Below are positions 176-38,458 of a stretch of DNA of 64,000 bases, piece after piece. Made by a program: the position numbers and the translations under genes. This DNA comes from Robertmurraya dakarensis (GTDB lineage Bacteria; Bacillota; Bacilli; Bacillales; Cytobacillaceae), in NCBI RefSeq assembly GCF_900156875.1, contig NZ_LT707409.1, positions 1,037,789 to 1,101,788 of the forward strand. The letters are read 5' to 3'. How positions within the stretch are numbered: the stretch's first letter is position 1; each line of letters begins with the position of its first letter. The notes below the pieces were generated by a model. That model did no database searches and was not told the origin of the DNA. It worked only from the letters and a program-made list of their open reading frames with translations.

Positions 176-1420
176 TTAATCTCTCCTTTCGGGTGGTGTG
201 TACAACTGATTGGTGCGTAGTAGCGAAAACACCAATCGTACCAGTTTTCTTGCGGTTAAGACGAGAGCGCGTTTGTGTTTATGTTTTGGAACTTCATCGT
301 ACTTCTTTGTGTAAAAAGCTTTATATTCAGAGTCGTACTTTCGGATCTTATCGGCAGCTTGAATAAGGTAGTAACGCAGGTATTTATTACCTGTCCTCAT
401 TCTAGCCGTTTCCTGGGATTCGAATTCGCCTGATTGGTTCTGGTTCCATACCAAACCTGCATATTTCGCTAAGGCATGATGATCTTTAAATCGCTTTATA
501 TCGCTAATTTCAGCTATCAACCCTGCCGCATAAACGTCTCCAATTCCTTTTACAGACGTTAGGGTTTGCGGTATGCCTTTCATTAACTTGGCAATTTCTT
601 TATCCAGACGCTTTACCTGTGACTCGATATGTTGAATGGTACTTAAAGTAACAGACATCGAAATATTTACGGGGTCCTGCATAGCCTTATTCAGCCGGTA
701 AGATGATCTAGCCAACTTTTGAAGGTATTTTGCGATTTCCTCTGGCTTTTCAAATCGGTTTTTTCCTTTATCTTGCAGGAACTCGACGAGTTCCTCGAGG
801 CTCATTTCAGCGATCGTTTCGGGCTCTAGTTCCTCCATGACAGCCATACTCGTAGCTCCGAATTTATCTGAAAATGGATTATCCTGTCTCAGTCCACTGA
901 ACTTTAAAAAGAGCTGGTTAAGGAAATACGTTTTATTTCGGGCAATCTCCCGCATAAAATGAAACCTTGTTCGCGTTAAGCGCTGAAGAGCTTCATATTG
1001 TATGGCATCTTTCATTTGGGCTGGCAGTCGGCCAAAGCGCAAGTGGTCAGCGATGACCCAGGCATCTATGCGATCGTTTTTTACAAGAGAATCATACCCT
1101 TTTTTGAAACGAGCGACTTTTCTCGCATTTAGTACGTAGATAGAGGCTTGAAACTTAGGTTCATAGCCTTTCATTTGGTCTTGTAGATAATGGGCAAGGT
1201 GCCAACTGTAAAGATCAGTGGCTTCCATCCCAATCTTCAATTGGTTGGCCTGACTTTTTTCCGCAGTTTCTAGCATTCGTTTGATCAGGGTTTCGGCCCC
1301 GGTTTGATCATTAGAAACAGAAAAGTCGGCGAGTGTGGACCCGTCCTCCTTCATGAAATGGACATGATGGGACTTCAAGCTTACATCTACACCAACAAGC
1401 ATTTGTGACATACCAATCAC
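176..1420 (-). CDS. IS110-family transposase (DEDD recombinase)
   Basis: A 414-residue transposase that would act in the cytoplasm on its own element. The N-terminal half carries the RuvC-like DEDD acidic residues: Asp in GVDVS near residue 12, Glu in GMEATDLY near residue 84, and the Asp pair in NDRIDAW near residue 135. The C-terminal half is the Transposase_20 domain, with a helix-hairpin-helix-like stretch (SVKGIGDVYAAGLIAEI) followed by the region that holds the catalytic serine in IS110 enzymes. Length is normal for the family and there is no internal stop, so the gene looks intact. ATG at 1420 was taken from the reading frame, but a second ATG four codons in (1408) is equally plausible. 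Family assignment is confident; activity is not shown. Confidence 0.93.
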   Translation of the reverse strand: MIGMSQMLVGVDVSLKSHHVHFMKEDGSTLADFSVSNDQTGAETLIKRMLETAEKSQANQLKIGMEATDLYSWHLAHYLQDQMKGYEPKFQASIYVLNARKVARFKKGYDSLVKNDRIDAWVIADHLRFGRLPAQMKDAIQYEALQRLTRTRFHFMREIARNKTYFLNQLFLKFSGLRQDNPFSDKFGATSMAVMEELEPETIAEMSLEELVEFLQDKGKNRFEKPEEIAKYLQKLARSSYRLNKAMQDPVNISMSVTLSTIQHIESQVKRLDKEIAKLMKGIPQTLTSVKGIGDVYAAGLIAEISDIKRFKDHHALAKYAGLVWNQNQSGEFESQETARMRTGNKYLRYYLIQAADKIRKYDSEYKAFYTKKYDEVPKHKHKRALVLTARKLVRLVFSLLRTNQLYTPPERRD

Positions 1421-1560
1421 CTCCAGTATGTAAGTTAATCAAGAACGTTCAGACCTGGGTGCCCACGGGAATCATCGATGTCTTCCTCGTCATCAGCACT
1501 CAAAGAAAAGAAGTCCATCATGAGCGCTACACTCACTTCTTTTACGGCGGCGCAACCAGT
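1421..1560 (-). ncRNA. Candidate IS110 bridge-RNA region (LE leader)
   Basis: The non-coding DNA just upstream of the transposase start is where IS110-group elements encode their guide (bridge) RNA. A 9-bp perfect inverted repeat (aaaagaagt at 1506-1514, acttctttt at 1535-1543) encloses a 20-nt loop, and the region is more GC-rich than its surroundings. I could not assign target-binding or donor-binding loops. This is inference from family knowledge plus one visible stem. Confidence 0.3.
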
Positions 1561-1591
1561 GGTTAGACCTTCAATAATGAACCATGGGTAG

Positions 1592-1714
1592 CAGGCTTAT
1601 GAAGCAGTACACCAAAGTGTCCGCAAGGGGGAGAAGCAATATCCTGATACGATCCTGTCGGTTCCATTGTCCCATGAGCAGGTCTATGAACGCTATAAAA
1701 AAATGACGGAGTAA
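1592..1714 (+). pseudogene. C-terminal remnant of an unidentified gene
   Basis: An open stretch of 40 codons ending in TAA at 1712-1714 and preceded by an in-frame TAG at 1589, with no start codon or ribosome binding site. The peptide reads like the tail of a normal soluble protein (…ILSVPLSHEQVYERYKKMTE). I do not recognise the family. Its abrupt left edge next to the IS110 element suggests that insertion or a linked deletion removed the rest of the gene. Confidence 0.35.
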
Positions 1715-1849
1715 AACGCTGGAGCTTCCTCCATTCTCCGCCATTTCTCGATATTCAGTTAAAGGCATTTCAAAGAAGCAGTAGGGAAACTATCCCCCTG
1801 CGAAATAAGAACAACACATTAATCTATTATTGATAGTTTGAACTTTACC

Positions 1850-1913
1850 TCGGCTTCCCCATCAGGTGGGTGAAACAAGGGTAAAACTAAAATATTTAAG
1901 ATGGGGAAGCCGA
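1850..1913. repeat. 14-bp perfect inverted repeat upstream of rbsD
   Basis: tcggcttccccatc at 1850-1863 is exactly complementary to gatggggaagccga at 1900-1913, with a 36-nt loop between. There is no T-run after the right arm, so it is not a standard terminator. It could be a leader structure of the rbs operon, an operator, or ends of a small relic element. The 1715-2025 interval holds nothing else I can identify; no catabolite-repression (cre) site was seen. Confidence 0.5.
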
Positions 1914-2025
1914 AAGGCTAACCTTGATAACCTATAGGAATCTAGAGTGAATTTTAGAGGATCCGGATCAACTGGAAATTCTTCTAGAAAGAGCTCTTAC
2001 TAGTACTATACGAGGGGGGAGAGTA

Positions 2026-2421
2026 ATGAAAAAGCATGGTATTTTAAATAGTCCCATCGCAAACGTGTTATCTTCCTTAGGTCATACAGATACGATTGTC
2101 ATTGCGGATTGTGGACTGCCGATCCCTGATGGTGTGCAAAGAATCGATGTATCGCTGAAAAAAGGCTTTCCAAGTTTCTATGAAACTCTTGAAATTATTT
2201 TGGAAGATATGGAAGTAGAGAAAATTACGCTTGCTCATGAGATTAAGGAAAAGAATGCCCCTTTACATGAGAAGCTGCAAGAAACATTTGCAACAACTGA
2301 CGCCGACTATGTCTCTCATGAAGAGTTTAAAGCTTTAACGAAAAATGCGAAGGCGATTATTCGTACGGGAGAAATCACCCCTTATGCGAATATCATTCTC
2401 CATTCTGGGGTGATTTTCTAA
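2026..2421 (+). CDS. rbsD: D-ribose pyranase RbsD
   Basis: Converts beta-pyranose ribose to the furanose form used after uptake. The 131-residue length is typical. His20 in [19 protein letters not shown] matches the catalytic histidine of RbsD, and the C-terminal [19 protein letters not shown] is the standard family ending. A strong ribosome binding site (gaggggggaga) precedes ATG 2026. The last base of the stop codon is the first base of rbsA, indicating translational coupling. In Bacillus subtilis the order is rbsR-K-D-A-C-B; here rbsR and rbsK are absent and an IS110 element and gene remnant lie upstream instead, so the native promoter and repressor may have been lost or moved. Confidence 0.97.
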
Positions 2422-3938
2422 TGAACAAACAAGCGCTAGTAGAAATGAAGGGCATTAGTAAGGCATTTTCAGGAAACCAAGTTTTAACCAATGTTGATTT
2501 CGATTTATTGCCTGGAGAGATTCATGCCTTGATGGGTGAAAATGGTGCAGGAAAATCAACCATGATGAAAATCTTGACAGGAATATACGAACGAGATACC
2601 GGGACTGTTTTTAGCAAAGGACAAGAAGTCCAATTCAAGGATGCCAAAGAAGCGGAAAAAGCCGGGATTGCAGTTATCCACCAAGAATTAAATATTATTC
2701 CTTACTTAACGGTAACGGAAAATATGTTTCTTGGAAAAGAGCTGACTGTTGGAAAAACAGGAATTCTCCGTATGGCGGAAATGAAGAAAAAGACGGAAGA
2801 ATATTTAAGCCGCTTAGGGATTGATATTGATCCGAATATCGAAGCTAGAGAACTATCTGTCGGACAGCAGCAAATGATTGAAATCGCGCGCGCAATCGCA
2901 GCAGATACAGATGTACTAATTATGGATGAACCAACAGCTGCTTTAACGGACCGTGAAATTGAAGCCTTATTTAAGGTAATGCGCGGCTTGCAAGAGCAAG
3001 GGGTAGGGATTGTCTATATCTCTCACCGAATGGAAGAGATTTTTAAAATGTGTGATCGCATCTCTGTATTGCGTGACGGTGAATATATCGGAACGAAAGT
3101 GATTAAAGAAACAAATTTTGAAGAGATTGTCAAAATGATGGTAGGCCGTGATATTGGCGAAAGGTACCCAGAACGACATGTGGAACTTGGTCCTGAACGA
3201 ATTCGTGTGGACAAGCTAAGCCATGAGAAAAAATTCCGTGACGTCAGCTTCTCTGTACACCAAGGAGAGATTCTCGGAGTGTCTGGTTTAATGGGGGCTG
3301 GACGAACTGAAATTATGGAAACCATTTTTGGTTCAAGAAAAAAGTCTAGCGGTGAGATCTGGATTGATGAGAAGCAAGTGAATATCCGCAATCCTTATGA
3401 TGCCATCCAATTAGGAATCGGTTTTATCACAGAGGACCGTAAAGATGAAGGACTTGTCCTTGACCTTTCCGTAAGAGAAAACATTTCTCTTACCAATTTA
3501 AAGCGTATTTCCAGCCAATCGGTGATATCAAAAACAAAAGAAACAGAGCTTGTGTCAAAGATGATTGAAAAGCTTCGCGTGAAAACCAGCGGTTCTGAAC
3601 AAAGTGTGAAATCACTGAGCGGTGGTAATCAGCAGAAGGTCGTAATCGGAAAGTGGTTAGGGATAGATCCGAAAATATTAATTCTTGATGAACCAACAAG
3701 AGGGGTAGACGTTGGGGCGAAAAAAGAAATCTATCAAATTATGAATGAACTTACCGAACGTGGAGTCGCCATCATTATGGTGTCATCTGATCTTCCGGAA
3801 ATTCTCGGAATGAGTGATCGAATCCTAGTCGTCCACGAAGGTAAGGCCACAGCAATCCTTGACCGTCAAGACGCGAATCAAGAAATCATTATGCAAGCGG
3901 CAACGGGAGGTAACTCACATGAAAAATCAGGCTCTTAG
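2421..3938 (+). CDS. rbsA: Ribose ABC transporter ATP-binding protein RbsA
   Basis: A 505-residue double-cassette ATPase that powers sugar import at the inner face of the membrane. The first cassette has Walker [10 protein letters not shown], signature LSVGQQQ and Walker [12 protein letters not shown]. The second has the degenerate P-loop GLMGAGRTE usual for this class, signature LSGGNQQK and [12 protein letters not shown]. Length and domain order match RbsA/MglA-type CUT2 ATPases. The gene overlaps rbsD by one base and its 3' end overlaps the start of rbsC, so the operon is tightly coupled. Confidence 0.97.
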
Positions 3939-4860
3939 TCAAACGGTTCAGAAGTTAGGTCCATTATTAGGTTTAGGCGCGATTGTAATCATTTTGTCTA
4001 TCTTAAGTCCAAACTTTCTAGAACTAAACAACTTACTAAATTTATTGCGGCAAGTTTCAATTAATGCGTTAATCGCATTTGGAATGACCTTTGTTATTTT
4101 AACCGGCGGAATTGATTTATCCGTTGGATCGATGCTCGCATTAGGGGCAGCGCTTACAGCTGGTATGTTATCAAGCGGGTTTGACCCTATCCTAGCTATT
4201 CTGTTAGGTTTGATGGCAGGGGCAATTATGGGTGCACTGAACGGTTTTATTATTACCAAAGGGAAAGTTGCTCCTTTTATTGCAACTCTAGCAACAATGA
4301 CGATTTTCCGCGGTCTAACACTTGTGTACACTGAAGGCCGTCCTATTACTGGTCTTGGAGAGAGCGTTGCCTTTGAATTAATGGGTCGCGGTTATTTCTT
4401 CGGAATACCAGTTCCTGTAGTACTAATGATTATTTCTTATGGTGTTCTCTATTTTATTCTGAAAAAGACAACTTTTGGCCGCCGCGTTTATGCAATTGGC
4501 GGAAATGAGGAAGCATCACGTCTATCTGGTATTAAGGTCGATCGAGTGAAGGTAGCGATTTACTCTATTACTGGGATGCTGTCGGTTTTAGCAGGGATCA
4601 TCTTAACATCACGCCTGAATTCTGCACAGCCAACCGCAGGTGTCTCGTATGAATTGGATGCCATTGCAGCGGTAGTGCTTGGTGGTACAAGTCTTTCTGG
4701 AGGACGCGGATGGATTTTTGGAACATTTGTAGGCGCTCTCATCATTGGAGTATTAAATAACGGTCTTAACTTATTAGATGTTTCATCATTCTATCAACAG
4801 GTGGTTAAAGGTGGAGTTATTCTACTAGCTGTTATTCTTGATAGAAAAAAGGCGTCATAA
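3919..4860 (+). CDS. rbsC: Ribose ABC transporter permease RbsC
   Basis: A 313-residue polytopic permease of the CUT2 (BPD_transp_2) family, with about eight to ten hydrophobic segments and the family blocks [18 protein letters not shown] and [14 protein letters not shown]. The open frame extends further upstream, but ATG 3919 is chosen because gggagg sits at the right distance (3905-3910) and the product then starts with a normal RbsC N-terminus. The gene overlaps the last 20 bases of rbsA. It pairs with RbsA as the membrane channel of the importer. Confidence 0.96.
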
Positions 4861-4939
4861 CACATTGAAATGCCCTTCTCCGTAAACAATACGTGGAAGA
4901 TCATTAATAAAAATTAATTTATTATTAGGGGGATTTATC

Positions 4940-5878
4940 ATGAAAAAGTGGTTACAAGCTTTCCTTTTTGTAGCATTAAGTGCCATCCTTTTAGCCGGCT
5001 GTTCAACAGAGGCTCCAGGATCTAATTCAGACAGTGAAGGAGAAGCTTCAGATAGCAGTGAAGGAAGCGCTAAAATTGGACTTTCCATTTCAACTCTGAA
5101 TAATCCATTTTTCGTAACATTAAAGGATGGAGCTGAAGCAGAAGCTGAAAAGCAAGGAATTGAATTAACAGTAGTTGATGCACAAAACGATCCAGCGAAA
5201 CAAGTTAGTGATATTGAAGATTTAATTCAACAAGGTGTCGATGTTCTTTTAATCAATCCAGCTGACTCTGCTGCGATCGCATCAGCAGTAGAATCTGCGA
5301 ACAATGCTGGTATCCCTGTTATTACGGTTGACCGCAGTGCAGAAGGTGGAGAAGTTGTAGCTCATATTGCTTCTGATAACGTAGCAGGTGGAAAAATGGC
5401 TGGTGATTTCATTGTTGAGCAATTAGGCGGAGAAGGAAATATCGTTGAGCTAGAAGGAATTCCAGGTTCTTCTGCTGCACGTGAACGCGGAGAAGGTTTC
5501 CATTCAGCAGTTGATGGTGTAGAAGGTCTTGAAGTGGTAGCGAAGCAAGCAGCAGATTTTGACCGTGCAAAAGGGTTAACAACGATGGAAAATATCATTC
5601 AAAGCTCAAGCGATATCAAAGCTGTGTTTGCACACAATGATGAAATGGCACTAGGTGCTCTTCAAGCAATTGAAGCGGCTGGTTTAACTGATGTTCTTGT
5701 AGTTGGATTCGACGCAACTGAAGATGCAGTAAAAGCTGTAGAAGAAGGCCGTATGCAAGCAACAGTAGCTCAAAAGCCGACAGTAATTGGTGAAACAGCA
5801 GTAGCAACAGCTGTAAAACTTTCAAATGGTGAAGAAGTGGAAGCATTTATTCCAGTAGAGCTTGAATTAGTAAAATAA
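4940..5878 (+). CDS. rbsB: Ribose-binding lipoprotein RbsB
   Basis: A 312-residue periplasmic-binding-protein-like lipoprotein that captures ribose outside the cell and delivers it to RbsAC. The signal peptide ends in a lipobox LLAGC (Cys near residue 21), followed by an acidic Ser/Glu-rich linker and a type I sugar-binding fold starting around residue 45 (KIGLSISTLNNPFF). DRSAEGGEVVAHIASDN and AVFAHNDEMALGALQAIEAA are characteristic. A gggggattt ribosome binding site precedes ATG 4940. It is the last gene of the operon and is followed by a rho-independent terminator. Confidence 0.96.
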   Translation: MKKWLQAFLFVALSAILLAGCSTEAPGSNSDSEGEASDSSEGSAKIGLSISTLNNPFFVTLKDGAEAEAEKQGIELTVVDAQNDPAKQVSDIEDLIQQGVDVLLINPADSAAIASAVESANNAGIPVITVDRSAEGGEVVAHIASDNVAGGKMAGDFIVEQLGGEGNIVELEGIPGSSAARERGEGFHSAVDGVEGLEVVAKQAADFDRAKGLTTMENIIQSSSDIKAVFAHNDEMALGALQAIEAAGLTDVLVVGFDATEDAVKAVEEGRMQATVAQKPTVIGETAVATAVKLSNGEEVEAFIPVELELVK

Positions 5879-5891
5879 TGATGTATGATTA

Positions 5892-5920
5892 CCCCGGTCT
5901 TTTGGCCGGGGCTATTTATT
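5892..5920 (+). terminator. Terminator of the rbs operon
   Basis: GC-rich hairpin ccccgg (5892-5897) with ccgggg (5906-5911), then ctatttatt, 13 bases after the rbsB stop. Confidence 0.8.
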
Positions 5921-5936
5921 ATAAAAATAGCCCTTG

Positions 5937-6353
5937 TCACTTAACCTCTCTTAAACCCTTCCCATCTAAAATTTCCTGAATTCCTTCCTGGCAGACGCCA
6001 TAAGACCGCCACGAACAAGTTTCACAGACGTGAAGAATATCAGAAGGGTTGATATGTTTTTGGATGTGGTCCTCAATGTCCTTCCATGTGAGGATATCAC
6101 CGACTTTAAGGTTCATTTTTTTTAAAATAGCAGCATCTCTAGCATAGATATTTTCATTTTCACAATGGTATTCGCCCGAGTTCGGGTATTTCTCACACAG
6201 TTTATCTGGTCCATTAACAATTTGAACCCATGTCTCTGGATGATTTCTTAATGTTTGATGCCAAGCTGTCATATTTTCAACATATTCCTTTGAATAGCCC
6301 ATTCCTCGATACCCAGGCAGGCAAAAAAGGTGATGTCCACGCAATTTTAACAT
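5937..6353 (-). CDS. DUF1284 domain protein, cysteine-rich
   Basis: A 138-residue soluble protein of the DUF1284 family, opening with LKLRGHHLFCLPGYRGMGYS. Seven cysteines are spread as FC near residue 11, CEKYPNSGEYHC in the middle and CETCSWRSYGVC near the C-terminus; the family has been suggested to bind an iron-sulfur cluster or metal, which is not shown here. ATG 6353 is chosen over the upstream ATG at 6371 because gagggg lies just ahead of it. No functional partner is adjacent: it converges on rbsB and is followed on the other side by about 235 bp in which I see no gene. Confidence 0.85.
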   Translation of the reverse strand: MLKLRGHHLFCLPGYRGMGYSKEYVENMTAWHQTLRNHPETWVQIVNGPDKLCEKYPNSGEYHCENENIYARDAAILKKMNLKVGDILTWKDIEDHIQKHINPSDILHVCETCSWRSYGVCQEGIQEILDGKGLREVK

Positions 6354-6588
6354 AATTCGCCCCTCATACATGGATATTTGTTAACCTAAACTCATCTTCG
6401 GTTAACTACTTTCATCATATCATATTAAAGTTTATAAATTGGGAATTTTTTTAAAAAATAAGGGCTTGTATTGGAAGTGATGAATATCGAAGGTTTCATA
6501 AGCGAGCATCAAAGATACCATTTCATCACGCTAGGCATCGATGACGCTGCGGCGCTTTGGGTTATAAAAGGAATACTAGGATCTTGCA

Positions 6589-6783
6589 CTAGACATTATT
6601 TTTTCTCGCTTCTTGTAAAGCATCGATGGAAACTAGCTGCTTTTCCCCGTGGTTTCCCTGATTTGAAATAAGCGCCATACTTGACGTGTCCTCAATACTT
6701 TCAATCCATACTGGATCTCCATGATAGTGTACAGGGATTTCTTGATTAGAATTTAAAACTTCTTTGACACGGTTAAAATCCAT
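6589..6783 (-). CDS. sspH: H-type small acid-soluble spore protein (SspH-like)
   Basis: A 64-residue protein resembling the SspH family of minor spore core proteins: a start like MDFNRVKEVL, a central HYHGDPVWIESIEDTSSMALI matching the family NVTYNGTPVWI-type strand, and a C-terminal VSIDALQE. Such proteins are made in the forespore and packaged in the core. A good ribosome binding site (gaggtgat) precedes ATG 6783. No convincing SigG promoter could be read in the 227 bp up to the next gene. Confidence 0.75.
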   Translation of the reverse strand: MDFNRVKEVLNSNQEIPVHYHGDPVWIESIEDTSSMALISNQGNHGEKQLVSIDALQEARKNNV

Positions 6784-7010
6784 TTTTTTATCACCTCAAT
6801 ATATACTTTCCCCGAACAGCTGCTGTAAAATCATTTCAAAAATTAGCAATATGAGGCAGCATGAAACTTCCCATCTTCGTTTCGTACTGAGATGTGTGAC
6901 CCGGGTCTGAAAATAACCTTGGGTTGGACAGTTTAATGACTTTATTATCCAGAATAGAACCCTTCGCAAAAGCCATGATAGTTATTAGTAAAACAAAGGG
7001 AGTGAAGCAT

Positions 7011-7859
7011 GTGAAAAAAACTTGGGCAATTGCCGCATCTGCAGCATTATCACTAACTCTTGTTGGCTGCGGAGCTAATGATGATACCGCAATGAATAAC
7101 AATAACAACAACAACCAGAGTCAAGGTTTTAACACAGAGCAAGTCAGAACGAGAAATGTCAACAATAACAATAATAACAACCAAACTAACGATCGCAATC
7201 TTTCCGTTTCCGATCGAGCAGAGCTTCAGGTCGAGAGAATGAATGAAGTGGAAGAGGCTAACGTCATAATCTGGAACAATAACGCTTATGTAGCTGTCAG
7301 GCTAGCTAATCAGGGTGATAACAGAAACAATCGCAACGGTGGTATGAACGCTTCCGACGTTAACAATGGAGGGGACAATAACGGCAACGCTGTTGATCGT
7401 ACCCTTGATAACGGAGGAAATGCACTAAATAATGGGACTGTTAATCAATCTGACAACAGAAATGGGAATAACGGCATGATCGATGGACAAGGCGATGCTG
7501 GTAAGGGAAGTCAGCAAAACACAGGAAATAACAATAACTTGTTTGATGTAAACAATAACAATAACAATAATAACAACAATAATGAACAGAGCGGGGCTAC
7601 ACCAGATCACGTAACAACAGATTATGCCTCAAACTGGAACAACTACAGCCCTGTATCAAATGCTTTTGAGCAAAAAATTGCAGACAGAGTACGCCAAGCG
7701 GAAAATAAAATCCATAAAGTCTATGTTTCCAATAACCCTGATTTATACGGAAAAATGAGCACATACGCAGATGAACTCAGAACAAATGGAAACGGAAACG
7801 GGATCCTCGATGACTTTAATAATACAGTTAACAATTTCTTTGGAAGAAATAATGAATAA
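7011..7859 (+). CDS. YhcN/YlaJ-family spore lipoprotein, Asn-rich
   Basis: A 282-residue lipoprotein. The signal peptide ends with SLTLVGC (lipobox), and the C-terminal domain (from about residue 190: NNYSPVSNAFEQKIADRVRQAENKIHKVYVSNNPDLYGKM) is the YhcN/YlaJ sporulation domain found in forespore-membrane lipoproteins. Between them lie long asparagine tracts encoded by aac/aat runs, notably near 7540-7585, which are likely to be length-variable. GTG 7011 was chosen because aaaggga lies eight bases upstream and the product then begins directly with a signal peptide; the longer frame from 6924 would put the signal internally. A terminator follows immediately, then the large 52-bp repeat array. 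Confidence 0.88.
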   Translation: MKKTWAIAASAALSLTLVGCGANDDTAMNNNNNNNQSQGFNTEQVRTRNVNNNNNNNQTNDRNLSVSDRAELQVERMNEVEEANVIIWNNNAYVAVRLANQGDNRNNRNGGMNASDVNNGGDNNGNAVDRTLDNGGNALNNGTVNQSDNRNGNNGMIDGQGDAGKGSQQNTGNNNNLFDVNNNNNNNNNNNEQSGATPDHVTTDYASNWNNYSPVSNAFEQKIADRVRQAENKIHKVYVSNNPDLYGKMSTYADELRTNGNGNGILDDFNNTVNNFFGRNNE

Positions 7860-7877
7860 TTAACTAAAAAATAATCG

Positions 7878-7928
7878 CCCGTTTCCATGCAAAAGGCATT
7901 AGCTAAAGCAAGGAGACGGGTGGTTTTT
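7878..7928 (+). terminator. Terminator of the yhcN-like gene
   Basis: Stem cccgtttcc (7878-7886) with ggagacggg (7912-7920, one G-T pair), then tggttttt. The right arm and T-run (about 7903-7928) resemble part of a monomer of the adjacent array. Confidence 0.7.
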
Positions 7929-7943
7929 GATATTAAGGGATTT

Positions 7944-10900
7944 GGTCTTCATAAAGCCAATGAGGACCGCTTGGTTGGTATTTTAAAAGGACTATGGTCT
8001 TCATAAAGGCAATGAAGACCGTTTAATTGGTTTCTTACAAGGCCTATCGTCTTCATAAAGGCAATGAAGACCGTTTGTTCGGTATTTTATAAAGCCTTTG
8101 GTCTTCATAAAAGCAATGAAGACCGTTTGGTTGGTTTTTTAAGTGACTCTTGGTCTTCATTAAGCGAATGAAGACCGTTTGTTTGTATTTTTACAAAGCT
8201 CTTGGTCTTCATAAAGGCAATAAAGACCGTTTGGTTGGGTTTTCAAATGACTTTTGGTCTTCATAAAGCCAATGAGGACCGCTTGGTTGGTATTTTAAAA
8301 GGACTATGGTCTTCATAAAGGCAATGAAGACCGTTTAATTGGTTTCTTACAAGGCCTATCGTCTTCATAAAGGCAATGAAGACCGTTTGTTCGGTATTTT
8401 ATAAAGCCTTTGGTCTTCATAAAAGCAATGAAGACCGTTTGGTTGGTTTTTTAAGTGACTCTTGGTCTTCATTAAGCGAATGAAGACCGTTTGTTTGTAT
8501 TTTTACAAAGCTCTTGGTCTTCATAAAGGCAATAAAGACCGTTTGGTTGGGTTTTCAAATGACTTTTGGTCTTCATAAAGCCAATGAGGACCGCTTGGTT
8601 GGTATTTTAAAAGGACTATGGTCTTCATAAAGGCAATGAAGACCGTTTAATTGGTTTCTTACAAGGCCTATCGTCTTCATAAAGGCAATGAAGACCGTTT
8701 GTTCGGTATTTTATAAAGCCTTTGGTCTTCATAAAAGCAATGAAGACCGTTTGGTTGGTTTTTTAAGTGACTCTTGGTCTTCATTAAGCGAATGAAGACC
8801 GTTTGTTTGTATTTTTACAAAGCTCTTGGTCTTCATAAAGGCAATAAAGACCGTTTGGTTGGGTTTTCAAATGACTTTTGGTCTTCATAAAGCCAATGAG
8901 GACCGCTTGGTTGGTATTTTAAAAGGACTATGGTCTTCATAAAGGCAATGAAGACCGTTTAATTGGTTTCTTACAAGGCCTATCGTCTTCATAAAGGCAA
9001 TGAAGACCGTTTGTTCGGTATTTTATAAAGCCTTTGGTCTTCATAAAAGCAATGAAGACCGTTTGGTTGGTTTTTTAAGTGACTCTTGGTCTTCATTAAG
9101 CGAATGAAGACCGTTTGTTTGTATTTTTACAAAGCTCTTGGTCTTCATAAAGGCAATAAAGACCGTTTGGTTGGGTTTTCAAATGACTTTTGGTCTTCAT
9201 AAAGCCAATGAGGACCGCTTGGTTGGTATTTTAAAAGGACTATGGTCTTCATAAAGGCAATGAAGACCGTTTAATTGGTTTCTTACAAGGCCTATCGTCT
9301 TCATAAAGGCAATGAAGACCGTTTGTTCGGTATTTTATAAAGCCTTTGGTCTTCATAAAAGCAATGAAGACCGTTTGGTTGGTTTTTTAAGTGACTCTTG
9401 GTCTTCATTAAGCGAATGAAGACCGTTTGTTTGTATTTTTACAAAGCTCTTGGTCTTCATAAAGGCAATAAAGACCGTTTGGTTGGGTTTTCAAATGACT
9501 TTTGGTCTTCATAAAGCCAATGAGGACCGCTTGGTTGGTATTTTAAAAGGACTATGGTCTTCATAAAGGCAATGAAGACCGTTTAATTGGTTTCTTACAA
9601 GGCCTATCGTCTTCATAAAGGCAATGAAGACCGTTTGTTCGGTATTTTATAAAGCCTTTGGTCTTCATAAAAGCAATGAAGACCGTTTGGTTGGTTTTTT
9701 AAGTGACTCTTGGTCTTCATTAAGCGAATGAAGACCGTTTGTTTGTATTTTTACAAAGCTCTTGGTCTTCATAAAGGCAATAAAGACCGTTTGGTTGGGT
9801 TTTCAAATGACTTTTGGTCTTCATAAAGCCAATGAGGACCGCTTGGTTGGTATTTTAAAAGGACTATGGTCTTCATAAAGGCAATGAAGACCGTTTAATT
9901 GGTTTCTTACAAGGCCTATCGTCTTCATAAAGGCAATGAAGACCGTTTGTTCGGTATTTTATAAAGCCTTTGGTCTTCATAAAAGCAATGAAGACCGTTT
10001 GGTTGGTTTTTTAAGTGACTCTTGGTCTTCATTAAGCGAATGAAGACCGTTTGTTTGTATTTTTACAAAGCTCTTGGTCTTCATAAAGGCAATAAAGACC
10101 GTTTGGTTGGGTTTTCAAATGACTTTTGGTCTTCATAAAGCCAATGAGGACCGCTTGGTTGGTATTTTAAAAGGACTATGGTCTTCATAAAGGCAATGAA
10201 GACCGTTTAATTGGTTTCTTACAAGGCCTATCGTCTTCATAAAGGCAATGAAGACCGTTTGTTCGGTATTTTATAAAGCCTTTGGTCTTCATAAAAGCAA
10301 TGAAGACCGTTTGGTTGGTTTTTTAAGTGACTCTTGGTCTTCATTAAGCGAATGAAGACCGTTTGTTTGTATTTTTACAAAGCTCTTGGTCTTCATAAAG
10401 GCAATAAAGACCGTTTGGTTGGGTTTTCAAATGACTTTTGGTCTTCATAAAGCCAATGAGGACCGCTTGGTTGGTATTTTAAAAGGACTATGGTCTTCAT
10501 AAAGGCAATGAAGACCGTTTAATTGGTTTCTTACAAGGCCTATCGTCTTCATAAAGGCAATGAAGACCGTTTGTTCGGTATTTTATAAAGCCTTTGGTCT
10601 TCATAAAAGCAATGAAGACCGTTTGGTTGGTTTTTTAAGTGACTCTTGGTCTTCATTAAGCGAATGAAGACCGTTTGTTTGTATTTTTACAAAGCTCTTG
10701 GTCTTCATAAAGGCAATAAAGACCGTTTGGTTGGGTTTTCAAATGACTTTTGGTCTTCATAAAGCCAATGAGGACCGCTTGGTTGGTATTTTAAAAGGAC
10801 TATGGTCTTCATAAAGGCAATGAAGACCGTTTAATTGGTTTCTTACAAGGCCTATCGTCTTCATAAAGGCAATGAAGACCGTTTGTTCGGTATTTTATAA

Positions 10901-13143
10901 AGCCTTTGGTCTTCATAAAAGCAATGAAGACCGTTTGGTTGGTTTTTTAAGTGACTCTTGGTCTTCATTAAGCGAATGAAGACCGTTTGTTTGTATTTTT
11001 ACAAAGCTCTTGGTCTTCATAAAGGCAATAAAGACCGTTTGGTTGGGTTTTCAAATGACTTTTGGTCTTCATAAAGCCAATGAGGACCGCTTGGTTGGTA
11101 TTTTAAAAGGACTATGGTCTTCATAAAGGCAATGAAGACCGTTTAATTGGTTTCTTACAAGGCCTATCGTCTTCATAAAGGCAATGAAGACCGTTTGTTC
11201 GGTATTTTATAAAGCCTTTGGTCTTCATAAAAGCAATGAAGACCGTTTGGTTGGTTTTTTAAGTGACTCTTGGTCTTCATTAAGCGAATGAAGACCGTTT
11301 GTTTGTATTTTTACAAAGCTCTTGGTCTTCATAAAGGCAATAAAGACCGTTTGGTTGGGTTTTCAAATGACTTTTGGTCTTCATAAAGCCAATGAGGACC
11401 GCTTGGTTGGTATTTTAAAAGGACTATGGTCTTCATAAAGGCAATGAAGACCGTTTAATTGGTTTCTTACAAGGCCTATCGTCTTCATAAAGGCAATGAA
11501 GACCGTTTGTTCGGTATTTTATAAAGCCTTTGGTCTTCATAAAAGCAATGAAGACCGTTTGGTTGGTTTTTTAAGTGACTCTTGGTCTTCATTAAGCGAA
11601 TGAAGACCGTTTGTTTGTATTTTTACAAAGCTCTTGGTCTTCATAAAGGCAATAAAGACCGTTTGGTTGGGTTTTCAAATGACTTTTGGTCTTCATAAAG
11701 CCAATGAGGACCGCTTGGTTGGTATTTTAAAAGGACTATGGTCTTCATAAAGGCAATGAAGACCGTTTAATTGGTTTCTTACAAGGCCTATCGTCTTCAT
11801 AAAGGCAATGAAGACCGTTTGTTCGGTATTTTATAAAGCCTTTGGTCTTCATAAAAGCAATGAAGACCGTTTGGTTGGTTTTTTAAGTGACTCTTGGTCT
11901 TCATTAAGCGAATGAAGACCGTTTGTTTGTATTTTTACAAAGCTCTTGGTCTTCATAAAGGCAATAAAGACCGTTTGGTTGGGTTTTCAAATGACTTTTG
12001 GTCTTCATAAAGCCAATGAGGACCGCTTGGTTGGTATTTTAAAAGGACTATGGTCTTCATAAAGGCAATGAAGACCGTTTAATTGGTTTCTTACAAGGCC
12101 TATCGTCTTCATAAAGGCAATGAAGACCGTTTGTTCGGTATTTTATAAAGCCTTTGGTCTTCATAAAAGCAATGAAGACCGTTTGGTTGGTTTTTTAAGT
12201 GACTCTTGGTCTTCATTAAGCGAATGAAGACCGTTTGTTTGTATTTTTACAAAGCTCTTGGTCTTCATAAAGGCAATAAAGACCGTTTGGTTGGGTTTTC
12301 AAATGACTTTTGGTCTTCATAAAGCCAATGAGGACCGCTTGGTTGGTATTTTAAAAGGACTATGGTCTTCATAAAGGCAATGAAGACCGTTTAATTGGTT
12401 TCTTACAAGGCCTATCGTCTTCATAAAGGCAATGAAGACCGTTTGTTCGGTATTTTATAAAGCCTTTGGTCTTCATAAAAGCAATGAAGACCGTTTGGTT
12501 GGTTTTTTAAGTGACTCTTGGTCTTCATTAAGCGAATGAAGACCGTTTGTTTGTATTTTTACAAAGCTCTTGGTCTTCATAAAGGCAATAAAGACCGTTT
12601 GGTTGGGTTTTCAAATGACTTTTGGTCTTCATAAAGCCAATGAGGACCGCTTGGTTGGTATTTTAAAAGGACTATGGTCTTCATAAAGGCAATGAAGACC
12701 GTTTAATTGGTTTCTTACAAGGCCTATCGTCTTCATAAAGGCAATGAAGACCGTTTGTTCGGTATTTTATAAAGCCTTTGGTCTTCATAAAAGCAATGAA
12801 GACCGTTTGGTTGGTTTTTTAAGTGACTCTTGGTCTTCATTAAGCGAATGAAGACCGTTTGTTTGTATTTTTACAAAGCTCTTGGTCTTCATAAAGGCAA
12901 TAAAGACCGTTTGGTTGGGTTTTCAAATGACTTTTGGTCTTCATAAAGCCAATGAGGACCGCTTGGTTGGTATTTTAAAAGGACTATGGTCTTCATAAAG
13001 GCAATGAAGACCGTTTAATTGGTTTCTTACAAGGCCTATCGTCTTCATAAAGGCAATGAAGACCGTTTGTTCGGTATTTTATAAAGCCTTTGGTCTTCAT
13101 AAAGGCAATGAAGACCATTTGGTTGTATTTTTACAAAGCCTTT
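7944..13143. repeat. Satellite-like array: 100 x 52 bp in a 312-bp higher-order unit
   Basis: Exactly 100 consecutive 52-bp monomers with no unrelated sequence between them. Six monomer types (A-F) follow each other in fixed order, giving a 312-bp unit that starts at 7944 and every 312 bp to 12936. Sixteen full units and half of a seventeenth (A, B, C) appear identical base for base; monomer 100 (13092-13143) is a diverged variant. Each monomer has a 25-bp core, ggtcttcat, a 7-base loop such as aaaggca, then atgaagacc, forming a 9-bp inverted repeat; type A has G for A in the right arm, type C lacks the terminal pair, type F has A for G. The remaining 27 bp (g-t/c-ttggttgg, T-run, variable end) differ between types. 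52 is not a multiple of 3, and no reading frame longer than about 60 codons crosses the array. The 52-bp period equals five turns of B-DNA at 10.4 bp. Confidence 0.98.
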
Positions 13144-13320
13144 AGTCTTCATAAAGGCAGTACCATTTATTCCTACTGATCATTTTGCTTTTGTCCTTCA
13201 TCATAGCAATGAAGACCATTGCCAATTTCCAGCACCTTTCCGTAGGCCAAATGCAGATGTAACTGCCCCACTGTTTTCACTGAATTTGACCACCGCCCAT
13301 TTCTTCATAAAACCTATAGT
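13144..13320. repeat. Decayed monomers at the right edge of the array
   Basis: A 49-bp degraded copy (13144-13192, right arm damaged), a second (13193 to about 13245, gtccttcatcatagcaatg then aagacc), and a possible faint third near 13291-13312. This is the pattern expected when unequal exchange homogenises the interior of an array but not its edge. The rest of 13321-13432 holds nothing I can identify. Confidence 0.75.
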
Positions 13321-13501: not shown

Positions 13502-14455
13502 ATGGAAAATCGCAGCAAGATTTTAGACTGTACCATTCGTGACGGAGGTTTAGTGAATAATTGGGACTTCAGCGTGGAATTTGTGCAAGATTTATATAAT
13601 GGCTTGAGTGCCGCTGGAGTTGAATACATGGAGATTGGTTATAAAAACTCTCCAAAGCTGCTTAATGCAACTGAGCCCAATCCGTGGAGATTTCTCGATG
13701 ACAATTTCCTTAAAGAAGTCATCCCTGAAAAGAAATTCACAAAGTTATCTGCTCTAGTCGATATTGGACGTGTAGACCCTGATGACATCTTGCCAAGAGA
13801 AGAATCAGTTCTCGATATGATTAGAGTAGCTTGCTATATTCGTGAAGTTGATAAAGGCTTAGAGCTTGTCAACATGTTCCATGACTTAGGATATGAAACA
13901 ACTCTGAACATTATGGCACTATCCAGTGTACCGGAAAGTCAACTGATCAAAGCATTTGAAATGGTGGAGAAAAGTCCTGTAGATGTCGTCTATATCGTTG
14001 ATTCTTTCGGCAGCTTAGATCCAGCTGATATCGAACATCAAGTGAAAAAATTCAAAAGCATGCTTCCAAACAAAGAATTAGGGATACATACACATAACAA
14101 CATGCAATTAGCTTTTGCAAACACATTAGCGGCTATGCGCAGCGGCGTAACTTACCTAGATTCATCTGTCTATGGAATGGGACGTGCGGCTGGAAATTGT
14201 CATACAGAGCTTCTTGTAAGCTGTATCCAAAAAACAAACTATGAATTAAAACCAATCCTTGGTGTCATTGAAAAACATATGCTGGAAATGCGTCAAAAGT
14301 GGGAGTGGGGCTATATCATTCCTTATATGATTTCCGGTGTCTTAAATGAACATCCACGTGTTGCGATGGCGTATAGAGCTAGTGACGACCGCGACAAATT
14401 TGTAGACTTTTATGACAAAGTAACGTCACCTGAAACGACTAATTCAAGTAACTGA
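13502..14455 (+). CDS. HMGL-type (DRE-TIM) aldolase-like metalloenzyme
   Basis: A 317-residue protein of the pyruvate-carboxyltransferase/HMG-CoA lyase superfamily, related to 4-hydroxy-2-oxovalerate aldolases. The N-terminal LDCTIRDGG holds the catalytic Arg-Asp pair, and GIHTHNNMQLAFANTLAA supplies the metal-binding histidines; YGMGRAAGNCHTELL is the usual strand-8 block. It is shorter than homocitrate or isopropylmalate synthases and lacks their C-terminal domains. No acetaldehyde dehydrogenase or meta-cleavage genes are nearby, so the substrate is unknown. A strong ribosome binding site (aggaggggg) precedes ATG 13502, and a terminator follows, so it is probably monocistronic. Family confident, reaction not. 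Confidence 0.85.
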   Translation: MENRSKILDCTIRDGGLVNNWDFSVEFVQDLYNGLSAAGVEYMEIGYKNSPKLLNATEPNPWRFLDDNFLKEVIPEKKFTKLSALVDIGRVDPDDILPREESVLDMIRVACYIREVDKGLELVNMFHDLGYETTLNIMALSSVPESQLIKAFEMVEKSPVDVVYIVDSFGSLDPADIEHQVKKFKSMLPNKELGIHTHNNMQLAFANTLAAMRSGVTYLDSSVYGMGRAAGNCHTELLVSCIQKTNYELKPILGVIEKHMLEMRQKWEWGYIIPYMISGVLNEHPRVAMAYRASDDRDKFVDFYDKVTSPETTNSSN

Positions 14456-38114: not shown

Positions 38115-38222
38115 AAAAAATCCTGATTACAAAAAACGAATGCATGTTACTTTCATTTTCTGTAATCAGGATTTTAAGGTTCCTGGTAGAGACCCTCAAG
38201 CCATATTCTTGAGGTTATACAG
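38115..38222 (-). promoter_or_regulatory. Adenine riboswitch with intrinsic terminator (pbuE leader)
   Basis: On the minus strand the aptamer spans 38222-38160: P1 ctgtataa / ttacag, P2 cctcaag…cttgagg with loop aatatgg, P3 with the conserved ctaccagg loop, and the junction base ahead of tacag is T (cctgattacag), which specifies adenine; guanine aptamers have C. The P1 3' strand also belongs to a 13-bp terminator hairpin (38161-38173 with 38119-38131) that ends in T6. Adenine binding should break the terminator and turn pbuE on, as in B. subtilis. Confidence 0.93.
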
Positions 38223-38458
38223 GTTTATATAGTTTTAAATAATCACTTTGAAAATTTTACTACGATACATTTTATATTTCAAGTGTAAATTTTTTCTGAG
38301 ATGTGATTTAGTTCATTGTAAACGTTTCACAATTCGATATAATACTAAAGGTATGGTTGGTTTATTAGGAGAAAAGAAATATTTTATAGCTGTTCACAAT
38401 GGATGTTCCTGAATGAAACACTAACTACATACATCAAATAATAAAGGAGACAACAGAT

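Follow-up and report, generated by a model that had tools for sequence, protein, structure and literature searches.

What is an array of one hundred near-identical 52-bp monomers doing in a bacterial chromosome? The question is raised by a 64,000-nucleotide stretch of Robertmurraya dakarensis (contig NZ_LT707409.1; hereafter the window), located at C11:1037789-1101788 of a 5.48-Mb genome whose contig C11 spans 3.6 Mb. An earlier note on this DNA could name no bacterial element that fits. The array is in fact a large member of a class published in 2021 as 52-nt tandem repeats, rather than a new kind of DNA (PMC8161180, Subirana and Messeguer 2021), and arrays of this class are linked to genes encoding one subfamily of NERD-domain proteins. 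A previously undescribed system of Bacillales, in which this dedicated NERD subfamily owns phased dyad arrays and acts on them in trans, probably explains the 52-nt repeats, including those of the window. For the window array itself, we lean towards a role as a dispersed, DNA-level target in this two-part chromosomal system of NERD gene plus array, with amplification presumably driven by cleavage.

The window array and its class

Cut in 52-bp steps, the array (Table 1) resolves into exactly 100 monomers of six types, A to F, plus one variant. The order is ABCDEF sixteen times, followed by A, B, C and a variant monomer G. The sixteen full 312-bp units are base-for-base identical, and self-identity of the array reaches 0.998 when it is shifted by 312 bp, against 0.77-0.80 for shifts of 52-260 bp. 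Tandem Repeats Finder (TRF) reports a period of 52 with 100.4 copies and a period of 312 with 16.6 copies. The monomer count, the fixed six-type order and the identity of the full units described in the earlier note are therefore borne out, while the terminal ‘half unit’ is really A, B and C with a divergent fourth monomer. The common monomer consists of the dyad GGTCTTCAT-N7-ATGAAGACC and a 27-bp linker. At the right edge, the TRF call runs to 13159, into a decayed 101st monomer, and a further decayed dyad was read in the sequence. The array contains no open reading frame (ORF) of at least 80 aa, in line with its description as non-coding, and it makes up 8.1% of the window, as had been estimated (8 percent).

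The copy number is as assembled. That the sixteen perfect units are an assembly artefact is very improbable: N runs do occur in some other stretches of this assembly, yet the array, well within a contig of 3.6 Mb, is free of them, and numerous independent assemblies contain arrays like it, most of them shorter.

Eukaryotic alphoid satellites are built of diverged monomers arranged in near-perfect multi-monomer units. The window array likewise sets monomers about 79% identical in such units, but it is bacterial, intergenic and dyad-based, and the centromeric parallel drawn earlier extends to organization and no further, segregation included. Recent amplification or homogenization, also proposed earlier, is supported. 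Other arrays of the same genome have higher-order units too: one of 104 bp in array L009, and a recurring 208-bp order in an array at C11:1.191 Mb, as read among the matches listed.

The published 52-nt repeats occur in about 30% of the Bacillus species studied, as well as in other Firmicutes, and constitute most tandem repeats in the Bacillus species rich in them (PMC8161180). They are non-coding and constant in length, and a genome can hold several families that are alike in length but not in sequence; 37 repeats are named as a particularly long case. Short signals are conserved within species, often with their reverse in the same repeat, in the absence of overall sequence conservation or of conservation from one species to another. 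B. subtilis 168 is reported to lack 52-nt repeats. No function or evidence for an interacting Cas-like protein was reported, and nucleoid stabilization was suggested as a role (PMC8161180). The window array shares the constant period (51-53 nt), the short signals with their reverse and the Firmicutes host, as all but one of the stretches with such arrays stand under Bacillales names. Its genome holds several equal-length families of different sequence, and the arrays are intergenic, with 10 of 111 overlapping an ORF of at least 90 aa. It differs in its 100 copies and six-monomer higher-order unit. Two further features go beyond the published description, namely a core common to several genera and the linked NERD subfamily; neither was met in a literature search that covered few subscription papers.

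The core recurs widely. Genome-wide, the dyad GGTCTTCAT-N7-ATGAAGACC with up to three mismatches has 744 forward-strand matches, compared with three for the reversed pattern. A search of the rest of the genome for monomers, as the earlier note had advised, thus returns abundant dyad matches, lying in many more 52-bp arrays whose linkers and loops differ. Among dyad spacings of up to 60 bp in 14 stretches of this genome, 203 of 221 equal 52. Across 193 genomes of the window's family, two TCAT-N7-ATGA dyads with a period of 37-67 bp give 4,790 forward matches versus 6 reversed. At least one such paired-dyad match is found in 147 of these genomes and at least five in 98, so the first view of the array as very unusual in bacteria is not supported. 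At 30 loci from this search, spacings of up to 66 bp are exactly 52 in 50 of 68 cases, and three dyads at exactly 52 bp occur in at least 117 stretches of genome_contigs, all but one under Bacillales names. The consensus of 144 arrays (a few of them duplicates; 142 distinct cores) is approximately AAAATG(T/G)(C/T)CTTCAT-N7-ATGAAG(G/A)(C/A)C-AAAA followed by some 16-18 weakly conserved bases, where the orientation rule accounts for part of the A-richness of the flanks and the search pattern imposes TCAT/ATGA. The same TTCAT...ATGAA core is present in two published consensus repeats, coagulans 8_52_18 and litoralis 42_52_9 (PMC8161180).

Two individual stretches deserve mention. A contig titled Chryseobacterium sp. 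ISL-80 (L210) carries a 52-bp array of the same type and may be a mislabelled or contaminated assembly. At L239, positions 813-8157, several genes and a 52-bp array are duplicated jointly as a perfect 3.7-kb tandem repeat.

A NERD subfamily beside the arrays

Among 219 proteins encoded next to arrays, two groups recur in at least six rows. One is a single orthologous group found at six loci in six organisms, with the array beyond the 3′ end of the gene every time. All three of its members that were scanned match the NERD domain (PF08378; E 3e-18 to 2e-13). The same set of loci holds two more NERD genes, with the array on the 3′ side at L156 and on the 5′ side at L143. The other recurrent group, also of six, appears ABC-transporter-like by eye and belongs to a large paralogous family.

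A profile built from the six array-adjacent proteins (A1) defines the subfamily; the array was not part of the query. Relatives at E <= 1e-20 are present in 180 of the 193 family genomes, with one to nine matches each. Linkage was scored as a TRF period of 49-55 within 1.5 kb of the gene, at 70 non-random family loci, 30 handed out by the A1 search and 40 hand-picked from a partial match list (L259 is the same gene as L116). A 3′ array is present at 58 of the 70, and the 5′ side alone carries one at a single locus. The first 30 loci comprise 24 with a 3′ array, one with a 5′ array, four cut by a contig end and one with none; the next 40 comprise 34, two cut and four with none. Six of the 11 array-less loci end at a contig break 47-182 bp beyond the gene. 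A second family, of 18 genomes around G034, has a 3′ array at every one of its 44 listed matches of at least 240 bits. By comparison, listed NERD matches of lower score (60-90 bits) in that family have an array on either side in 0 of 29 cases; among other control loci, around Y1 and HMGL-like genes, 1 of 29 has an array.

When both families are pooled, 102 of 114 loci have a 3′ array and eight a 5′ array, seven of these alongside a 3′ one. The two-sided loci all fall among the 44 of the second family (L340, L351, L352, L353, L380, L381, L382). Flanking on both sides was rejected as a rule, given that likeness to the locus's own unit appears in the 5′ flank in just 9 of 87 cases, eight of them from the second family. 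The first 87 linked arrays lie at a median of 60 bp from the gene, 84 within 200 bp, and have a period of 52 (77 arrays) or 51 (10 arrays). In the window's own genome, the NERD gene at C11:432990-433895 (minus strand), one of two matches, ends 91 bp from an array.

Could the neighbourhood be incidental? Passive satellites, arising by replication slippage and unequal crossing-over with NERD genes nearby by chance, are an improbable explanation. Unequal exchange does yield higher-order units and identical copies, and near-identical NERD loci can differ in copy number (3.0 at L281, 12.3 at L291). However, a fixed period and a conserved dyad across many Bacillales are not expected from passive satellites, and neither is the gene linkage. 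The first 99 loci form 60 groups by five-prime flank, 57 of which include a 3′ array, so the linkage does not reflect one inherited neighbourhood; grouping by the opposite flank, for the 84 loci with a flank ORF there, gives 52. As the grouping used single linkage of 1.5-kb flanks, these numbers are estimates.

The class extends beyond the window's dyad, as ten genomes without a TCAT pair have NERD-linked arrays (G009, G063, G094, G122, G126, G135, G141, G144, G153 and G156). In several of these arrays the inner core differs, for example TCAA...TTGA or TAGA...TCTA.

Gene and array also vary together. Dispersed arrays are closer to the NERD-linked array of their own genome than to those of other genomes (mean percentile 0.86 over 14 genomes holding both kinds, Wilcoxon p 0.0009). 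NERD protein identity correlates with unit identity over 59 loci (rho 0.47; 0.46 between genera; matched in 0 of 2000 permutations each), and a TCAT label is clustered on the NERD tree, with 13 changes versus 19.2 in shuffles, 1 of 500 shuffles being as low. At least five paired-dyad matches are found in 97 of 180 NERD-positive genomes compared with one of 13 NERD-negative ones (Fisher p 0.0011), and NERD gene copies correlate with paired-dyad matches per genome (rho 0.42); neither figure is corrected for phylogeny, which lowers their weight for the proposed system.

The NERD-subfamily proteins are about 300 aa long and carry the D...ExK arrangement. In 70 proteins (L260 numbering), E42 is conserved in 69, D74 in 70, E87 in 63, K89 in 70 and Q116 in 70, and four cysteines are conserved in 69-70. 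The residue set is the PD-(D/E)XK pattern, and the four cysteines presumably form a zinc ribbon. Cysteine pairs are no marker of the subfamily, being present as well in 20 of 21 inspected NERD proteins of lower score. With the AlphaFold model, Foldseek places an R2 retrotransposon protein first (E 0.0037) and then a Holliday-junction resolvase (E 0.023). A sequence search of the PDB returned no relative, just two nanobody chains (E 0.4-0.6). One NERD query found no relative in 72,556 plasmid or 50,697 phage records, and none was confirmed by the A1 profile on viral contigs. The defence proteins PglW and MAD6 share the NERD domain through weak matches in or around the NERD part, far below the NCBIfam cut-off, and their models are much longer.

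These observations suggest how a two-part system might work. Its first part would be the NERD (PF08378) subfamily, whose genes are usually trailed within about 100 bp by a 52-bp array; the second would be the further arrays of the same dyad type dispersed in intergenic DNA. The NERD protein may read the dyad as DNA, either as a palindromic duplex or as a hairpin or cruciform. A fixed 52 bp would correspond to five helical turns at 10.4 bp, so that all dyads would face the same side of the helix. By cutting or nicking dyads, NERD might provoke repair between copies, which could lengthen, shorten and homogenize arrays and seed new ones; the sixteen identical 312-bp units are proposed to result from this repair-driven homogenization. 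Class membership, the common core, arm covariation, location between genes, linkage of gene and array, conserved catalytic-type residues and the likeness of dispersed to gene-linked arrays within a genome are observed; NERD binding, cleavage, array amplification and any benefit to the cell are inferred. The conserved core, and a gene family carrying the same arrays, turn unexplained repeats into a testable system with a defined DNA target. If the nuclease does act on the arrays, it would represent a bacterial system, neither CRISPR nor RAYT, for producing or policing satellite DNA, and this would matter for genome stability and genome assembly in Bacillales.

Several findings weigh against this proposal. 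The sole placed NERD match of the window's genome lies about 0.6 Mb from the window array, and genome G047 has 22 paired-dyad matches and no NERD match at E <= 1e-20 (12 of 15 candidates scored). Five NERD loci with full flanks have no array (L279, L300, L307, L310, L326), and the copy number is below three in 9 of the first 87 linked arrays. A strong dyad (above the 99th percentile of shuffles) is found in just 32 of 59 and 10 of 29 NERD-linked units in the two families, and in many dyads of the window's genome a difference in one arm goes uncompensated in the other (GGTTTTCAT, GGTCATCAT). The tendency of dispersed arrays to match their own genome breaks down in Ureibacillus chungkukjangi (0.18), and G078 (0.54) speaks neither way; three other core labels are unclustered on the NERD tree (18 versus 19.0, 6 versus 6.7 and 3 versus 3.0 changes). 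Confidence in the AlphaFold model is low (pLDDT 63.5), and Foldseek gives no PDB match that reaches E 0.001. Signs of terminators and of transcription, taken up below, point the same way.

DNA, RNA and comparison with known systems

Whether the dyads act as DNA or as RNA can be judged from their arms and placement. Seven arm pairs covary in Watson-Crick fashion (z 5.8-9.9 versus shuffles that ignore relatedness, a limit that counts against the DNA-level case), and wobble pairs are not in excess on either strand. Relative to codirectional genes, arrays are oriented 40 versus 32, or 42 versus 30 by loop. The 101 arrays without ORF overlap lie between 72 codirectional, 22 convergent and seven divergent gene pairs. 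Covariation without wobble, no strong relation to strand and few divergent placements together favour a DNA-level dyad that avoids promoter regions.

An RNA-level system, in which transcribed hairpin RNAs serve as a terminator train, a sponge, small RNAs or a ToxIN-like antidote of a NERD ribonuclease, is distinctly unlikely on this evidence, although it has points in its favour. As RNA, a single 312-bp unit has a strong fold whichever strand is read (z -6.8 and -6.0), and 50 dyads of the window array are terminator-like on the plus strand (53 in the scanned region, where 6.7 are expected from shuffles). RNA-seq of B. coagulans contains 52-nt repeat reads (PMC8625621). The NERD-linked array, moreover, sits just downstream of its gene. 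Apart from the missing wobble excess and the inconsistent strand of dispersed arrays, loop orientation to the NERD gene is inconsistent (47 of 59 in one family, 14 of 29 in the second), for which reason a fixed array orientation to the gene was discarded. The window array, in addition, begins only a few bases past a terminator-like hairpin (Table 1).

In type III toxin-antitoxin systems such as ToxIN, the RNA repeat array is on the 5′ side of the toxin gene. Judged by position alone, the arrays described here do not have this layout, given their 3′ location at 102 of 114 loci and 5′ location at eight.

A related possibility is a binding platform without cutting, in which the phased dyads are covered by NERD or a different protein, either to organize the nucleoid or chromosome or to titrate that protein. 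The period of five helical turns would suit such coating, as would the stabilization of the nucleoid already proposed (PMC8161180), and in the window's genome the arrays sampled tend to lie around the terminus. It is nonetheless unlikely: the catalytic-type residues of NERD are conserved, and the terminus bias is not general. The terminus lies near C11 1.1-1.2 Mb, as indicated by GC skew and dnaA. In systematic 20-kb samples of C11, arrays are present in four of seven at 0.6-1.8 Mb and in none of eight at 2.0-3.4 Mb, towards the origin. The two longest arrays seen in this genome (100 and 63 copies) are near the terminus, and arrays nearer the origin also exist, at C10:153 kb and, with 2.6 copies, at C11:3.54 Mb. 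Taking the terminus as opposite dnaA, 6 of 10 listed arrays are in the terminus quarter in G056, 2 of 11 in G059 and 0 of 6 in G010 (G016 was left out). Concentration of sites at the terminus, the point of comparison with matS/MatP, is therefore a tendency of the window's genome and G056 that is absent in G059 and G010, and a terminus organizer is not supported as a general feature. Replication was also considered through the loop: among the pattern matches listed, the purine-rich loop strand is largely the leading strand on C11 and C10 (126 versus 17, three of the 17 ambiguous). The idea that the loop strand tracks replication was dropped, as the array at 1.191 Mb does not fit and the trend is weak by eye in other genomes.

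Repetitive extragenic palindromic (REP) sequences and the mosaic elements they form (BIMEs) are intergenic palindromes dispersed in the genome, and a nuclease-type gene is flanked by the same palindromes. The NERD-linked arrays resemble them in both respects. They differ in having a NERD/PD-(D/E)XK protein instead of the HUH Y1 enzyme of RAYT (TnpA-REP), head-to-tail 52-bp tandems, an array mainly on the 3′ side, and one to nine NERD gene copies per genome in many contexts. Mobilization of REP-type elements by a Y1 transposase was suggested by co-occurrence: among 41 genomes, all six with at least two GGT-dyad matches have, by our reading, a Y1 gene of RAYT-like size and score. This account is now hardly credible. 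Within flanks of at most 5 kb, two of which were cut, none of 14 RAYT-type genes has a 52-bp-period array beside it; the nearest repeat is a 2.1-copy 50-bp one about 3.3 kb away at L059. G008 has 70 paired-dyad matches and no Y1_Tnp match. The account was rejected on these 14 loci and G008.

Other repeats are found around RAYT-type genes. Those of relatives (L053, L063) are flanked by GGGACGG-type repeats and 59/67-bp units, unlike the 52-bp arrays. In the window's genome, L051 990-3227 is a 2.2-kb tandem repeat of the 9-bp unit TGTTGCCGT in about 248 copies, near a RAYT-type gene.

The arrays resemble CRISPR-Cas arrays in their regular run of constant and variable parts close to a nuclease gene. 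In the window array, however, the linkers repeat with the unit in place of unique spacers, and arrays are found at many loci; CRISPR was set aside on the spacers. No cas gene was seen among the 10 window proteins scanned, though no search was aimed at cas genes. The RAYT/REP, terminus-organizer, RNA and CRISPR readings all fit the window array worse than that of a DNA-level target in a NERD-plus-array system.

Features of the window

The array and its surroundings are listed in Table 1. The hairpin upstream of the array escaped a simple terminator scan because its loop exceeds the limit of the scan. In a look for an array-free counterpart of the locus, the HMGL-like gene downstream gave matches of only 23-33% identity in the six genomes of the same genus.

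Table 1. Position and strand of the array and adjoining features, in window coordinates
Feature	Position	Strand	Basis
52-bp tandem array, 100 monomers (ABCDEF x16, A, B, C, G)	7944..13143	+	Monomer cutting, TRF, lag identity
First 312-bp higher-order unit; each monomer a variant of GGTCTTCAT-N7-ATGAAGACC plus 27-bp linker	7944..8255	+	
Decayed right edge: partial monomer and degenerate dyad GTCCTTCAT-N7-ATGAAGACC at 13193-13217	13144..13217	+	TRF, sequence reading
Terminator-like hairpin with T run, between upstream gene and array	7873..7930	+	Fold z -6.4
Flanking gene, sporulation lipoprotein YhcN/YlaJ-like (PF09580), start codon not settled	6924..7859	+	
Flanking gene, HMGL-like (PF00682)	13502..14455	+	

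The YhcN-like lipoprotein gene contains a short AAC/AAT microsatellite at 7551-7588. An Rfam scan of the window gave no match in the array and a single one elsewhere, a purine riboswitch (RF00167, 76 bits) at 38143-38242 on the minus strand.

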